Shown piece by piece: positions 7,092 to 57,789 of a stretch of DNA of 60,312 bases. The notes under the pieces were generated by a model that did no database searches, was not told the origin of the DNA, and saw nothing but the letters and a program-made list of their open reading frames with translations. Within the stretch, counting starts at the first letter, position 1. Each line of letters starts with the position of its first letter. This DNA comes from Peptococcaceae bacterium 1109 (GTDB taxonomy: Bacteria > Bacillota > Limnochordia > Darwinibacteriales > Darwinibacteriaceae): positions 1 through 60,312 of the forward strand of contig LDJB01000006.1 of assembly GCA_001028815.1 (NCBI GenBank). Direction: 5' to 3'. The position numbers and the translations under genes are program-made.

Positions 7092-7352
7092 CTACTGCGG
7101 CTGAGTAGGCGGCTGGGCTTGGGCGGCAAAACCACCCTGTTGTTCCATGAGCGATTGCTCGGCGGCGGCAATCATGCGGCGGACCATCTGGCCGCCCACT
7201 GCACCGCACTCGCGGGAGGAGATATTCCCCCAATAGCCCGTTTGGTACTCAGGGTTAATCCCCAATTCGCTCGCGACCTCATACTTGAACTTATCCATGG
7301 CCTGAGCAGCCTGCGGGATCATTATCCGATTCTTGCTCCGTCCGCGCGCCAT
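7092..7352 (-). CDS. Alpha/beta-type small acid-soluble spore protein
   Basis: DNA-saturating spore protein that protects spore DNA from UV and heat and is degraded by the GPR protease at germination. Family motifs are visible: a KYEVASELGI stretch (the GPR cleavage region), GYWGNISSRECGAVGG and the MVRRMI motif. The 86-aa chain ends in a Gln/Pro-rich tail. A GGAGGTGACT site precedes the ATG by about 7 bases. It is the first of two tandem paralogues, each with its own terminator. Confidence 0.96.
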   Translation of the reverse strand: MARGRSKNRIMIPQAAQAMDKFKYEVASELGINPEYQTGYWGNISSRECGAVGGQMVRRMIAAAEQSLMEQQGGFAAQAQPPTQPQ

Positions 7353-7462: not shown

Positions 7463-7732
7463 TTATACCTGCTGATTACCTGGCTCCTGTGGGAAACGGA
7501 ACCCACCAGCCTGACCTTGATTCATCAGAGACTGCTGAGCAGCGGCGATCATCCGCCGAACCATATGTCCGCCCACAGCACCACACTCTCTCGAAGAGAT
7601 ATTGCCCCAATAACCGGACTTGTACTCGGGGTTGATTCCCAGCTCGGTAGCAACTTCATACTTGAACTGGTTCATTGCCTGGTAAGCTTGGGGAATCACC
7701 TTAATGTTGCTGCCTGAAGAACCTTGTGCCAT
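7463..7732 (-). CDS. Alpha/beta-type small acid-soluble spore protein
   Basis: 89-aa paralogue of the neighbouring SASP, with the same KYEVATELGI and GYWGNISSRECGAVGG motifs. It differs in a Gly/Ser-rich N-terminus and a different C-terminal tail. The ATG at 7732 is preceded by AAGGGGGTGAT with 7 bases between. A GTG at 7744 is open in frame but lies inside that site. Expression in the forespore under sigma-G is expected from the family; no promoter was assigned. Confidence 0.95.
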   Translation of the reverse strand: MAQGSSGSNIKVIPQAYQAMNQFKYEVATELGINPEYKSGYWGNISSRECGAVGGHMVRRMIAAAQQSLMNQGQAGGFRFPQEPGNQQV

Positions 7733-7835
7733 TCTCCATATCACCCCCTTTTCCCCTGCAAGCTTAATGTACCCCGTTGCAGGAGAACTAAGCAGGTAGA
7801 CTGTTGGGTGAAATGGAAACTACTCTTTTATGTTT

Positions 7836-8021
7836 TTAGTCGAGACTAATCGCACTGGTCGGGCAAGACTCTGCCGCTTCTTCGCAGCACCCTGCCGCTT
7901 CACAGCCACTGGCATCAGTTACATGGGCAAGGCTATCGTCGCCCATTTCGAAGACCTCTGGGCAGATTTCTGCGCAAAGGCCGCAACCAATACAGAGATC
8001 ATGATCCACTTTTGGATTCAA
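7836..8021 (-). CDS. Ferredoxin with one [4Fe-4S] cluster
   Basis: 61-aa electron carrier of the Bacillus/Thermotoga type. It has CIGCGLCAEICPE near the N-terminus and a distant CPTSAI cysteine, so one cluster is predicted; the extra cysteines in GCEAAGCCEE are unusual and could form a disulfide. The start is a TTG at 8021 behind GAGGAGG. It lies 17 bases downstream of the rubredoxin gene, so the two form an operon. A likely electron partner for PFOR (22.6-26.1 kb). Confidence 0.92.
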   Translation of the reverse strand: MNPKVDHDLCIGCGLCAEICPEVFEMGDDSLAHVTDASGCEAAGCCEEAAESCPTSAISLD

Positions 8022-8038: not shown

Positions 8039-8200
8039 TTAACCTAATTCTTCAAACAGGTCTTTGCCGACGCCGCACTCCGGGCAAACCCAATCATCAG
8101 GCAAATCTTCGAAAGCTGTTCCCGGTTCGATTCCCTGTGTTGGATCTCCCTCTGCTGGATCATAGATGTACCCGCAAACTGTGCATTCCCACTTAGACAT
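8039..8200 (-). CDS. Rubredoxin
   Basis: 53-aa mononuclear iron protein with the two knuckles CTVCGY and CPECGVGK and the conserved DPAEGDP and LPDDWVCP segments. The ATG at 8200 follows AGAGGTGATT; the longer in-frame reading to 8308 would enter the OmpH-like gene and is rejected. In anaerobes rubredoxin passes electrons to FprA-type flavoproteins, and one is encoded at 10.9-12.1 kb. Confidence 0.96.
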
Positions 8201-8240: not shown

Positions 8241-8702
8241 CTAAATCCCAGTACGCAAATGGGATGGAACAGATATCCCGTAGGATTGGTACATGGCTTC
8301 CAGCACAAGGGGAGTCAGGTTGACGCCGCCGAGAATGACGATCCCGTGAGGCAAAACCACTTCAACCCCATGGGCATTCGCGACCTCTTCGATGGTCTGC
8401 CTCACGGCAGAAACAATAAACAGCCGCAGTTCTTCAGCGATTGAGTCGAGCTGGGCTTCATACTTCGCGGCCAGCTCGTCCAGATTGACGTCTTCACCAA
8501 GTGCACTGGCCTCAGCCTGAAACTCTGCGGTAAGCCTCTCCGCAGCTTCCTGAAGCTCTTCGTTCTTCAGTTCATATTCAGGATGATTATTAAACAAAAA
8601 CTCAAAATCCACATAGCCCACAGTGCCAGCCAAGACCGGTTGTGCGAACAGGCCTCCGAGCAAGATTAGTGTTAGTGCGAATAAAACAGCATTACGTCTC
8701 AA
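8241..8702 (-). CDS. OmpH/Skp-like exported protein
   Basis: 153-aa protein with an N-terminal signal peptide ([20 protein letters not shown]). The mature start [15 protein letters not shown] matches the OmpH/Skp family ('VGYVD...LFNxHP'), followed by a long acidic helical section (about residues 45-110) that would form the coiled-coil arms. In Gram-negative bacteria Skp is a periplasmic chaperone for outer-membrane proteins. The start is a TTG at 8702 behind AAGGAG. Its presence suggests, but does not prove, an outer membrane. Confidence 0.75.
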
Positions 8703-8788: not shown

Positions 8789-9220
8789 CTACTCGCTCTC
8801 GGAAGCCGCTCGAAGGGCCTTTTCCTCATCAGCTAGCTGGCCGATGGTAATCCGCTCTAGTACACCCATGAGTGCAGTTTGGGCTTCCTGCCACACCGAG
8901 TGCAGAGGACACCTGCCAAGCCGCGAGCAACCCAATTCATTGGTGAGGCACCTTGAAATAGCCACTCTACCTTCAATTAGCTCAATAACGTCTCGAACAG
9001 AAATCGAGTTTGCGTCAACCAGCAGTTTTACGCCGCCACCTGGGCCGCGCACCCCTTCAACCCAGCCCTCAGTGCCAAGTAGTGCAATAATTTGAGGCAA
9101 AAAATTGACTGGGATATCTTGACGGTGTGCGATCTCTTTTGAGGAAATATATTCTCCAGGATTCTGCGCGAGCTCGATTAGGGCGCTTATGGCATACTCG
9201 GTCTTCTTTGTGATTTCCAC
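8789..9220 (-). CDS. Rrf2-family transcriptional regulator
   Basis: Rrf2/IscR-type repressor of about 143 aa. The N-terminus ITKKTEYAISALIELA and the winged helix with SKEIAHRQDIPVNFL are family hallmarks, and three cysteines (CLTNELGC...GRCPL) could bind an iron-sulfur cluster, as in IscR or CymR-like sensors. The start is a GTG at 9220 behind GAGGTGA. A consensus promoter lies upstream. No isc/suf genes are nearby, so the target is open. Confidence 0.9.
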   Translation of the reverse strand: MEITKKTEYAISALIELAQNPGEYISSKEIAHRQDIPVNFLPQIIALLGTEGWVEGVRGPGGGVKLLVDANSISVRDVIELIEGRVAISRCLTNELGCSRLGRCPLHSVWQEAQTALMGVLERITIGQLADEEKALRAASESE

Positions 9221-9253
9221 CCTATTCACCTCAGTATATAACACCTACTAAAA

Positions 9254-10923: not shown

Positions 10924-12105
10924 CTACTGCAAGCCCTCCGCCATGAAGCGGCCTAGGCTGAGGCAGCGTTCTTTGTCCGCATCGGTCAGGCCGAAGCGCA
11001 CTTTAACTGGGGGGTGGGATACTACGAGGCGCATTTTTTCCAAGCGCTCTTCCAGAAGCCCCACCGCTTCCCCGCTCCAGCCGTAGTTGCCAAACACCGC
11101 CGCGGCCTTCCCTCGGGCCGTGATGGCACTGACTCGGTCAAGAGCCCGCCAAACTGGCTCAACTACGTTAGCGTTAATTGTGGGTGAACCGATTATCAGT
11201 GCATCAAACTCTTCAAACAGCTCATCTAAGTGGCTCTCTGGGGCCACTCCAACATCTACCAGGGCAATTTCCACGTTGCCCGCTTCCTCCACACCCTTGG
11301 CGATCAGCTCCGCCATGGCCTTGGTATGGCCGTATGCGGAAGCGTATGCGATTATCACCTTTTTCGCCTGCCCCTCCTCGATGCAGCTCCAGCGGCGGTA
11401 GAGGTCGACTACTCGCCAAGGATCCCGATCCAGGATGGGCCCGTGTCCGGTAGCAATCAGATCAATGTCTAGCGAACCAACCTTAGCCACAGCTTCCTGA
11501 ACCTTCGGCTTAAAGGGGCTCATAATGCTGTCGAAATAGTAACGGATCGCTTCTGTGAAGTCTTCCGCCTGTTCGCTTTCTAACAGCTTGCCTTCAGGTG
11601 GGCTGTAATGGCTGCCGAAGGCATCGCAAGTAAACAGCACCCCTTCCCCCTCTAAATAGGTGAACATGGTATCAGGCCAGTGGAGGAAGGGCGCCATGAT
11701 GAACCGCAGGCGGCGGTTGCCCAGATCTAAGCTGTCGTTCTCCCCCACCACATGGGCGTCGAAGTCCATGTTTACCTGCTCTCGCAAGAACTGGATCGCC
11801 GCCCTGGAACCATGCACCTTGAGGTGGGGTGCCCGCCGAAGGAGCTCCCCTACAGCGCCGGAGTGGTCAGGTTCGGTGTGGTTGACAATGAGGTGCTTTA
11901 AGTTAGCTAGGTCGATGCGTTCCTCAAGTTTCTCAAGAAACTCTTCGGTGAAGTTCCCTTTGACTGTATCCACCAAGGCTGGCTCATCAGCCTCGATAAG
12001 GTAGGAGTTATATGTGGTACCCCACTGCGTGGGTATAACGATATCAAAGATTTCCAGGCCCGGGTCAAGTACCCCAACCCAGTGAATACCTTTGCGGATT
12101 TCCAT
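10924..12105 (-). CDS. fprA: A-type flavoprotein FprA (diiron O2/NO reductase)
   Basis: 393-aa flavodiiron protein. The N-terminal metallo-beta-lactamase-like domain carries the iron ligands in HTEPDHSG and GHGP, with a TCDAFGSH segment between. The C-terminal flavodoxin domain (from about residue 250) shows the FMN loop YASAYGHTKAMAE. These enzymes reduce O2 to water or NO to N2O with electrons from rubredoxin, or directly from F420H2 in archaea. The ATG at 12105 follows GAGGGGGATG. A promoter and a Fur/PerR-like box lie upstream. It fits the oxygen-defence set with rubredoxin and peroxiredoxin. Confidence 0.96.
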   Translation of the reverse strand: MEIRKGIHWVGVLDPGLEIFDIVIPTQWGTTYNSYLIEADEPALVDTVKGNFTEEFLEKLEERIDLANLKHLIVNHTEPDHSGAVGELLRRAPHLKVHGSRAAIQFLREQVNMDFDAHVVGENDSLDLGNRRLRFIMAPFLHWPDTMFTYLEGEGVLFTCDAFGSHYSPPEGKLLESEQAEDFTEAIRYYFDSIMSPFKPKVQEAVAKVGSLDIDLIATGHGPILDRDPWRVVDLYRRWSCIEEGQAKKVIIAYASAYGHTKAMAELIAKGVEEAGNVEIALVDVGVAPESHLDELFEEFDALIIGSPTINANVVEPVWRALDRVSAITARGKAAAVFGNYGWSGEAVGLLEERLEKMRLVVSHPPVKVRFGLTDADKERCLSLGRFMAEGLQ

Positions 12106-12124
12106 GCCTTCATCCCCCTCGTAT

Positions 12125-12174
12125 TGATAACTATTCTTACTATCTATTATGGGGGAATTTCTGCATTTTGGCAA
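12125..12174 (-). promoter_or_regulatory. fprA promoter with PerR/Fur-like box
   Basis: On the minus strand TTGCCA (12169-12174) and CATAAT (12146-12151) are separated by 17 bases. Just downstream, over the predicted start point, plus-strand positions 12125-12139 read TGATAACTATTCTTA, matching 11 of 14 fixed positions of the Fur-family 7-1-7 pattern. A similar 15-mer occurs at the peroxiredoxin start (48464-48478). Confidence 0.5.
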
Positions 12175-12180
12175 GGGTTT

Positions 12181-12645
12181 CTATGCCCAATCACACCGTT
12201 CAGCTAGGAAATTCGCGACTTTCTCGAGCCCAGCCCCATCTGCCTCGCTAAAACGGGCTAGCTCAGGGCTATCCACATCGAGCACCCCTAAGAGCTGGCC
12301 ATCCTTTTCTATGGGCACCACAACCTCCGAGCGGGAGATGGGATCACAGGCGATGTGGCCGGGGAACTCATGCACATCGGGAACAACGTGGCTCTTCCGC
12401 AGCAGAGCAGTCTGGCCGCACACACCCTTGCCCATCCCAATGCGGATGCAGGCGGGCCTTCCTTGGAATGGCCCAAGGACCAGTTCTTCCCCTTTCAAGA
12501 TGTAAAACCCCACCCAGTTTATGCGAGGCAACTCCTCCCAGAGCAGAGCCGCAGCGTTAGCCAAGTTTGCGACCCAATCCCGTTCATTGCCGATCAAGGC
12601 CACCAGTTTTCCGTAAAGCTCTTCGTAGAACTGAGCATGCTCCAT
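12181..12645 (-). CDS. msrC: Free methionine-(R)-sulfoxide reductase (GAF type)
   Basis: 154-aa single GAF-domain enzyme that reduces free Met-R-sulfoxide with thioredoxin. The three family cysteines are in place: GRPACIRI, GKGVCG and HIACD, and SEVVVPI closes the pocket. The ATG at 12645 follows GGGAGGAAG; the frame to 12876 overlaps glgP and is rejected. It lies 75 bases upstream of fprA on the same strand, so two oxidative-damage genes are adjacent, though fprA has its own promoter. Confidence 0.94.
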   Translation of the reverse strand: MEHAQFYEELYGKLVALIGNERDWVANLANAAALLWEELPRINWVGFYILKGEELVLGPFQGRPACIRIGMGKGVCGQTALLRKSHVVPDVHEFPGHIACDPISRSEVVVPIEKDGQLLGVLDVDSPELARFSEADGAGLEKVANFLAERCDWA

Positions 12646-56394: not shown

Positions 56395-57678
56395 TTAGTA
56401 GGCTTTCTGTGCATCCTCTTCCAGCTGGCGAGTGATGGCTTCGATATCAGGGTTGCGGACGAACTCTTGGAATCCACCGCGCATACCCGTTCCCGCTGTG
56501 GAGCCAAACTCCTGCGGTACCAGGTCAGAGAGGTCGAAACGGAACCATTCTGCTTCTTGCAGAGCCTTAGCAGAGGCTGCAACGATCTCGTTCGGATATA
56601 CTGACAAGTCTACGCCCTTGTTCGGCGAAGTAATGCCGCCCCGGGATGCCCAGATCTCAGCTGCCCGAGGAGATGCCAGGAAGCGCAGGAGAGCTCTGGC
56701 GCCTTCTGTATCCTTCATCATAACCATCACGTCACCGCCACCCACCACTGCTTGCGGAGAATCGTTGATGGATGGGAAGGGGAAGAAGAGAGCATCTTCG
56801 CCTACAACTGCCTTGGTTTCGGTCTGGATAGCAGAGACGGAGAAGTCAGCACCATAGGCCATGGCTGCCTGAGGTGGATCCAGGAAAGGCTTGATAATCC
56901 CTTGCGGATGGTTGGCTTCCAGAGTACCCTCTACCCCGCCTGCCAGCCATTCTGCCCGGCCCAAGACCTGCTTGAGGTACTCAAAGGCCTCGATGACTGT
57001 GGGATGGGTCCAGGGAATCTCGTGCCGGACGAGTTGGTCATAGAGCTCGGGGCCGGCTACCCGCAGGTAAATGTTCTCAAACCAGTCGGTAAGCACCCAA
57101 GAGGATCCGCCACCGGTAGAGAATGGGGTGATGCCGTAGAAGTCGATCATCTCAGCTACTTCCATCATCTCTTCCCAGGTGGTAGGCACTTCTGCGCCAA
57201 CCTCGGCAAAGATGTTGGTGTTGTACCACACAACGGACTTGTTAGCAGCTTTGTACCATACGCCGTAGAGCTTGCCATCTACGGAGCCCAGTTCACGCCA
57301 CACAGGAGCGTAGTATTCGTCAACCAGGTCACCGGCGATGTCATCGATAGCAACCAGGAATCCCCTGCGGGCAAAGTCTTGCACGAGGCCAGGGTTGGGC
57401 AGGGCCGCGATATCCGGCGGGTTGCCGCCTTCTACTCTTGTACCCAGCACTGTTGCGAGGTTTTCAGGGGTTGGGCTGTAGATTACCTCTGCACCAGTTA
57501 GTGCACTGAACTCTGCTAGAACTGCTTCGAAGTTGCGCTGTTCCTCACCGCTCCACAAAGCAATGACGTTTACGGTTTGGCCAGCGAGATTGGGCCACTC
57601 TTCTGCAGCCGCAACTGGCCCAACGATTACAACTAGTAATGCCAAGACTAAGGTTAGCACACGGATGTTGAGTTTCAT
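56395..57678 (-). CDS. ABC sugar substrate-binding protein (AglE-like)
   Basis: 427-aa family 1 extracellular solute-binding protein. The signal peptide LALLVVIVGPVAAAEE has no lipobox Cys, so the protein would be released into a periplasm or the medium, unlike most Firmicute binding proteins. NVIALWSGEEQRNFEAVL, KSVVWYNTNIFAEVG, and WVLTDWFENIYLRVAGPELY strongly recall alpha-glucoside binding proteins. The ATG at 57678 follows AAAGGAGG. First transport gene of the operon; substrate inferred from family. Confidence 0.93.
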   Translation of the reverse strand: MKLNIRVLTLVLALLVVIVGPVAAAEEWPNLAGQTVNVIALWSGEEQRNFEAVLAEFSALTGAEVIYSPTPENLATVLGTRVEGGNPPDIAALPNPGLVQDFARRGFLVAIDDIAGDLVDEYYAPVWRELGSVDGKLYGVWYKAANKSVVWYNTNIFAEVGAEVPTTWEEMMEVAEMIDFYGITPFSTGGGSSWVLTDWFENIYLRVAGPELYDQLVRHEIPWTHPTVIEAFEYLKQVLGRAEWLAGGVEGTLEANHPQGIIKPFLDPPQAAMAYGADFSVSAIQTETKAVVGEDALFFPFPSINDSPQAVVGGGDVMVMMKDTEGARALLRFLASPRAAEIWASRGGITSPNKGVDLSVYPNEIVAASAKALQEAEWFRFDLSDLVPQEFGSTAGTGMRGGFQEFVRNPDIEAITRQLEEDAQKAY

Positions 57679-57789
57679 CATAATCCTCCTTTGTATTCTC
57701 GTCGCTGGAACAACTATGGAGTTGTGTACAACCGGTTGCTCTCCAGACATCACCCCTTTACAGCACCAAGAAAATCCAAGAGAACGGTG

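Follow-up and report, generated by a model that had tools for sequence, protein, structure and literature searches.

LpxC and LpxA are missing from all 36 genomes examined from the order of Limnochordia that contains Peptococcaceae bacterium 1109, the source of the 60,312-nucleotide stretch of DNA analysed here (the window), and this absence is what is new relative to the literature found. Our search retrieved no published report of a lipid-A-free Limnochordia order; the genome survey of Taib et al. 2020 may already give one. The reading that best accounts for the observations jointly, to which we assign a probability of about 0.75, is that the window encodes a secreted Skp-type chaperone of an uncultured, predicted endospore-former with an outer membrane, in which the lipid A branch would have been lost, LpxB altered, and another lipid exported by the Lpt system. 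The gene content supports the prediction of a diderm endospore-forming cell. Limnochorda pilosa is said to be called a Gram-negative spore-former in the title of Watanabe 2016. Since a diderm envelope has already been described for Limnochordia, including Limnochorda pilosa, Geochorda and Carboxydochorda (accessible part of PMC11456536), the diderm spore-forming cell plan itself is not new for this class.

A third Skp paralogue in the window

The open reading frame at positions 8241-8702 (minus strand) starts with TTG and encodes 153 amino acids, comprising a signal peptide and a mature part of 128 residues. The protein, which we call Skp3, matches the Pfam OmpH family (45.3 bits versus a cut-off of 32.4, E-value 1.3e-11) and has no match in NCBIfam. 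Its leader (MRRN...QPVLA, followed by GT) reads by eye as a signal peptide without a cysteine, which points to a secreted protein rather than a lipoprotein. A profile built from an alignment of 36 Skp proteins, from the window and its relatives, has as its top PDB matches the E. coli Skp structures 1SG2 (E-value 4.7e-9) and 1U2M (7.6e-9). The same alignment was the input to AlphaFold, which yielded a model with a pLDDT of 87.6, where strands 27-31 and 113-118 belong to a beta core and residues 43-71 and 74-110 form two long antiparallel helices. In a comparison of this model with the PDB (VIA), ranks one to four are all Skp/OmpH proteins or complexes containing one, with Z-scores of 11.9 (1U2M), 11.5, 10.1 and 10.0, versus 7.4 for the next, unrelated entry. 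Chains containing Skp/OmpH also occupy ranks one to ten in Foldseek; the best E-value is a modest 2.7e-4, so it is the rank order that bears the argument for the Skp fold. The dN/dS ratios of 0.096 versus a congeneric genome and 0.079 versus another genus, rough values because dS is high, indicate strong purifying selection. The first-pass annotation of an OmpH/Skp-like protein at this locus is thus confirmed by the Pfam match, the signal peptide, the predicted fold and the selection regime: the gene is real and of the Skp type.

E. coli Skp holds barrel proteins for BamA and is a basic protein. Skp3 shares with it the signal peptide, the beta core with a helical arm, the OmpH domain and the best PDB match, but differs in its low identity (18-19%), in an apparently shorter arm, as judged from the shorter helical stretch, in its acidic pI of 4.3 and in a gene location that does not adjoin bamA. 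We rejected acidic pI as a mark of LPS absence, since acidic Skp proteins also occur in Natroniella and in LpxC-positive relatives. By analogy with the E. coli chaperone, we assume that Skp3, with its signal peptide, small beta core and two antiparallel helices making a short arm, would trimerise and bind outer-membrane proteins, still unfolded, before they reach BamA.

Genomic context and evolution of Skp3

For comparative analysis, we used 72 genomes of the class, 36 from the window's order (mostly draft assemblies) and 36 others. OmpH proteins were found in all 36 genomes of the order. The genome of Peptococcaceae bacterium 1109 has two further OmpH genes outside the window, both located within a cluster of outer-membrane genes, from which Skp3 is set apart. 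From 20 of the 36 order genomes, we chose 20 OmpH matches as likely Skp3 orthologues. In all 20 loci, Skp3 is flanked by an Rrf2-family regulator and a rubredoxin (one rubredoxin is cut by a contig end), while a ferredoxin, two small acid-soluble spore proteins (SASPs) and TadA usually lie downstream. In the window, all of the following neighbours are on the minus strand: the upstream Rrf2 gene at 8789..9244 (Pfam Rrf2, 124.4 bits), the downstream rubredoxin at 8039..8200 (Pfam Rubredoxin, 91.4 bits), the ferredoxin at 7836..8021 (Pfam Fer4_13) and two alpha/beta-type SASPs at 7463..7744 and 7092..7352 (Pfam SASP, 93.0 and 97.1 bits, cut-off 22). The window protein and its 20 orthologues form a single clade (support 100/100) apart from both Skp1 and Skp2. 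This clade and the conserved locus show that Skp3 is an old, retained third Skp and not a stray gene. The junction of Skp3 with the other Skp proteins has support of 67/79 at a point where long branches meet, and for this reason we do not claim that Skp3 is the ancestral Skp.

A location away from BamA and next to SASPs, an Rrf2 regulator and rubredoxin, conserved in all 20 loci, together with a clade of its own, could also be explained by a specialised coiled-coil protein, acting for instance in the forespore or in redox stress, rather than a chaperone of outer-membrane proteins. We consider this explanation improbable, though worth keeping in mind, because the fold is Skp-like and because the sampled members of the order that lack SpoIVA retain Skp3 after loss of the SASP pair, so that the protein is not tied to spores. 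These members belong to families f2 and f5 (4 of the 36 order genomes), which appear to have lost sporulation and retained the outer membrane. In the two Skp3 loci of these families that reach far enough (L169 and L172) there is no SASP pair, whereas all 16 comparable SpoIVA-positive loci have one.

Besides the two SASPs, the source genome encodes SpoIVA outside the window (373.5 bits), and by these genes it is a predicted endospore-former; SpoIVA occurs in 32 of 36 genomes of the order and in 66 of 72 genomes of the class. The window also contains an extracellular solute-binding protein at 56395..57753 on the minus strand (Pfam SBP_bac_1, 92.8 bits), for which an internal ATG near 57678 is the probable start codon. 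Its hydrophobic leader, as read from the sequence, ends in VAAA and has no lipobox cysteine there.

The outer-membrane gene cluster

The outer-membrane cluster of the source genome lies outside the window (G000:C1:37000-76390, loci L005 and L007). It encodes the flagellar proteins FlgH (168.7 bits), FlgI (391.7 bits) and FlgA, of which the first two form the P/L rings, as well as BamA (Omp85 189.1 bits, POTRA 75.4 bits), two Skp paralogues of Skp3, an ABC exporter pair, FabZ, an LpxB-family protein, a DUF3084 protein and an SLH-porin of 818 amino acids. The Lpt bridge is complete, comprising LptB (TIGR04406, 349 bits), a single LptF/G (LptF_LptG, 319.4 bits), LptC (TIGR04409, 62.1 bits), LptA (LptD_N, 35.0 bits) and an LptD-like barrel protein, whose profile match is too low for a firm assignment to LptD (DUF3769, 21.3 bits). 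LptF/G was found in 35 of the 36 order genomes, always as a single copy, compared with two copies in most of the LpxC-positive families other than f14 and f15. In the LPS diderm Bacillota (Negativicutes and Halanaerobiales), one cluster likewise combines BamA, several Skp genes, the Lpt genes and OmpM, with up to three Skp per genome (PMC5007114, in the part available). The window's order differs from them in the absence of LpxC and LpxA, in the altered LpxB and in the location of a third Skp outside the cluster.

Several other genes of the cluster deserve mention. Just upstream of BamA, L005:6234-8021 encodes a protein of 595 amino acids that carries a GMSGSP motif and an S55 peptidase domain of the SpoIVB type (38.0 bits), placing a spore-type protease family inside an outer-membrane cluster; homologues precede BamA in loci L183-L187 and, at a greater distance from it, in L117, L118 and Natroniella. 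The SLH-porin is followed by a Wza-like protein (1151 aa, 12 SLBB repeats) and a Wzz-like protein (L007:9709-14603), so a surface polysaccharide exporter adjoins the cluster. Two proteins encoded between and after the Skp genes (L005:10429-11013 and 11587-12195) have no Pfam match: a 194-aa protein that by eye is charged and helical, and a 202-aa possible small barrel, which recurs in each of the 16 cluster loci examined from the order.

The Skp-like protein and the sugar-binding protein without a lipobox had been taken in the first-pass annotation as hints of a diderm, endospore-forming lineage. Both observations hold, and BamA, the Lpt set, the SLH-porin and FlgH/FlgI, together with the SASPs and SpoIVA, bear the proposal out. 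Among the markers that it named, BamA and an LptD-like barrel are present; the lpx genes are reduced to a remnant, LpxC and LpxA being absent and LpxB altered. Its two possible objections also receive an answer. Outer-membrane assembly genes exist in the source genome itself (BamA and the Lpt genes), and in the monoderms considered there was no sign of a shared OmpH: none was found in the Bacillus subtilis control, and the atypical Gram-negative monoderm Bacillota listed in the accessible part of PMC11448272 are reported to have neither OmpH nor BamA. BamA is close to universal in the class (70 of 72 genomes, with 35 of 36 in the order), but the phylum sample has it in only 49 of 199 genomes.

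The cluster could alternatively be a leftover in a lineage that is monoderm or becoming so, as would fit the loss of lipid A genes and the repeated outer-membrane loss inferred in Bacillota (PMC5007114 and PMC11448272, as far as their available text goes). We regard this as very unlikely given the near-universal retention of BamA, Skp and LptF/G across the order, the strong purifying selection on both Skp3 and the LpxB-like gene (see below), and the intact porin-like and P/L ring genes of the source genome.

Absence of LpxC and LpxA from the order's genomes

We profiled LpxC, LpxA, LpxB and KdtA across the class genomes. LpxC was found neither in the source genome nor in any of the 36 genomes of its order, whereas 31 of the 36 other class genomes are positive; for LpxA, the corresponding numbers are 0/36 and 32/36. 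At least one of the two genes was detected in 33 of the 36 genomes outside the order, with strong matches. The only family of the class outside the order in which neither was found is f12 (3/3 genomes). Three further genomes (G044, G045 and G047) each lack one of the two, and these single absences look like assembly gaps. KdtA (PF04413) proved unsuitable as a further marker of lipid A: it exceeds the cut-off in one of 72 class genomes, and being missing from the other 71, LpxC-positive ones included, it is uninformative on lipid A. LpxB-like proteins were identified in 34 of the 36 order genomes with scores of 155-207 bits (and one partial match of 69.8), compared with 262-337 bits for LpxB in LpxC-positive genomes.

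The gene order suggests where the loss would have occurred. In the LpxC-positive genome G053 (locus L085), the genes follow the order ABC ATPase, LpxC, sugar nucleotide enzyme, FabZ, LpxA, membrane protein, LpxI, LpxB and LptB, the sugar nucleotide enzyme and LpxI being named by eye. In 27 of the 31 LpxC-positive genomes, a single contig carries LpxC, LpxA and LpxB in this sequence; in the remaining four they are split over contigs or no LpxA match was found. In all 16 loci examined from the window's order, the ABC ATPase is followed by FabZ (in 12 of 16), the LpxB-like gene and LptB, and the distance between the ABC and LpxB matches is 112-623 bases, versus 5107 in G053. We infer that, in the ancestor of the order, the outer-membrane cluster lost the lipid A branch (lpxC and lpxA) from its middle part, and by comparison with this one relative lpxI may have been lost at the same stage.

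The altered LpxB-like protein

We aligned 18 of the 34 LpxB-like sequences of the order with 31 rows (30 different sequences) from the LpxC-positive set, in which G044 and G045 (LpxC missing, LpxA present) are counted, and with two sequences of f12. The order retains 32 of the 60 columns that reach 95% conservation in the LpxC-positive set. E. coli LpxB (PDB 5W8S) belongs to the same family, aligns over residues 10-379, and provides the residue roles (PMC5785501, accessible part). The equivalent of D98, its predicted catalytic base, is glycine in 18/18 sequences of the order and aspartate in 31/31 rows (30 different) of the other class genomes. E15 is replaced by aspartate in 17 of the 18 sequences, S17 and T277 vary, and S200 is mostly replaced. 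On the other side, R201 and N316 are conserved as R and N in all 18 sequences, and the ribose-binding E281 is retained in 14. The LpxB-like proteins form one clade (100/100), with a warning from the tree tool that long branches meet, and a comparison of the two congeneric genomes gives a dN/dS of 0.073 at a dS of 1.6, which is near saturation. These features suggest a protein under constraint, with a mostly kept donor half and a rebuilt acceptor half. Our preferred interpretation is that the acceptor has changed; alternatively, catalysis may have been lost, leaving a structural role. Some of the proteins may be inactive, given that E281 is lost in 4/18, S200 mostly replaced and T277 variable.

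The side-by-side retention of the LpxB-like gene, FabZ and the whole Lpt chain would also be expected if the order made ordinary lipid A by means of distant replacements of LpxA and LpxC, the LpxB-like protein still being the lipid A disaccharide synthase. This is unlikely, as both LpxC and LpxA are missing in every one of the 36 genomes although the matches in relatives are strong, the predicted catalytic base is replaced in all aligned sequences, and the LpxB-like protein of the source genome falls below the NCBIfam lpxB equivalog cut-off (179.6 versus 190.25 bits). Under the preferred reading of a lost lipid A branch, LpxB stayed and changed in its acceptor half (D98 to G, with R201 and mostly E281 kept), and the enzyme may have become one that glycosylates a different lipid.

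The Lpt system delivers an amphipathic lipid of the inner membrane to the outer one. If lipid A is not made, it must carry something else, as has been proposed for Borrelia burgdorferi, a diderm without LPS that has Lpt orthologues with a glycolipid as the suggested cargo (PMC10353723, in the part available). The similarity lies in Lpt without LPS; Borrelia is a spirochaete that forms no spores, whereas the window's order keeps an LpxB-like enzyme in its cluster. Lpt would then export the product of this enzyme or another glycolipid, resulting in an outer leaflet without lipid A.

A possible lipid-A-free state elsewhere in the phylum

Among the 199 genomes sampled from the phylum, 49 have BamA, including 37 with LpxC and 12 without. 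The latter comprise five genomes of the window's order and seven others. Two of the seven are incomplete (G143 at 72% and G224 at 85%) and belong to families that include LpxC-positive genomes, so these absences are likely gaps; there remain f76 (3/3), f86 (one genome) and f51 (one genome). The reverse combination, LpxC without BamA, was seen in G153 and G218. We therefore rejected the idea that the lipid-A-free state is unique to the window's order, with f12, f76, f86 and f51 as counterexamples. The two LpxB sequences of f12 keep D98 and have T in place of R201, which looks like a separate loss.

Two further observations concern genomes of this sample. Outside the class, four genomes that have BamA but not LpxC contain a single open reading frame of 1079-1110 amino acids that combines LptF/G with the LptD-like barrel (L183:11258-14536, L184:9303-12635, L185:9555-12842 on the minus strand, and L187:9544-12783). 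Such a fusion of an inner-membrane permease to an outer-membrane barrel would need cutting, unless translation restarts inside; the junction in L183 carries a signal-peptide-like stretch. In the complete genome G217, LpxC is split by an in-frame stop (C1:2530119-2530926), possibly a recent break.

Implications for envelope evolution in Bacillota

A broader proposal, which we put forward tentatively, is that a whole order of spore-forming Bacillota may have an outer leaflet made of a glycolipid other than lipid A, with lipid A synthesis excised from the cluster, LpxB rebuilt as a different glycosyltransferase and Lpt carrying the new lipid, and that the same kind of loss has seemingly been repeated in f12 within the class and in f76, f86 and f51 outside it. 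The path from two membranes to one in Bacillota is an open question, and loss of LPS before loss of the membrane is one possible path. The window's order looks like a middle state, in which the outer membrane, the Lpt bridge and sporulation are kept and lipid A is gone. As sister families still have lipid A, a gene-by-gene comparison is possible, and the altered LpxB is a defined enzyme whose product could reveal an Lpt cargo other than LPS.
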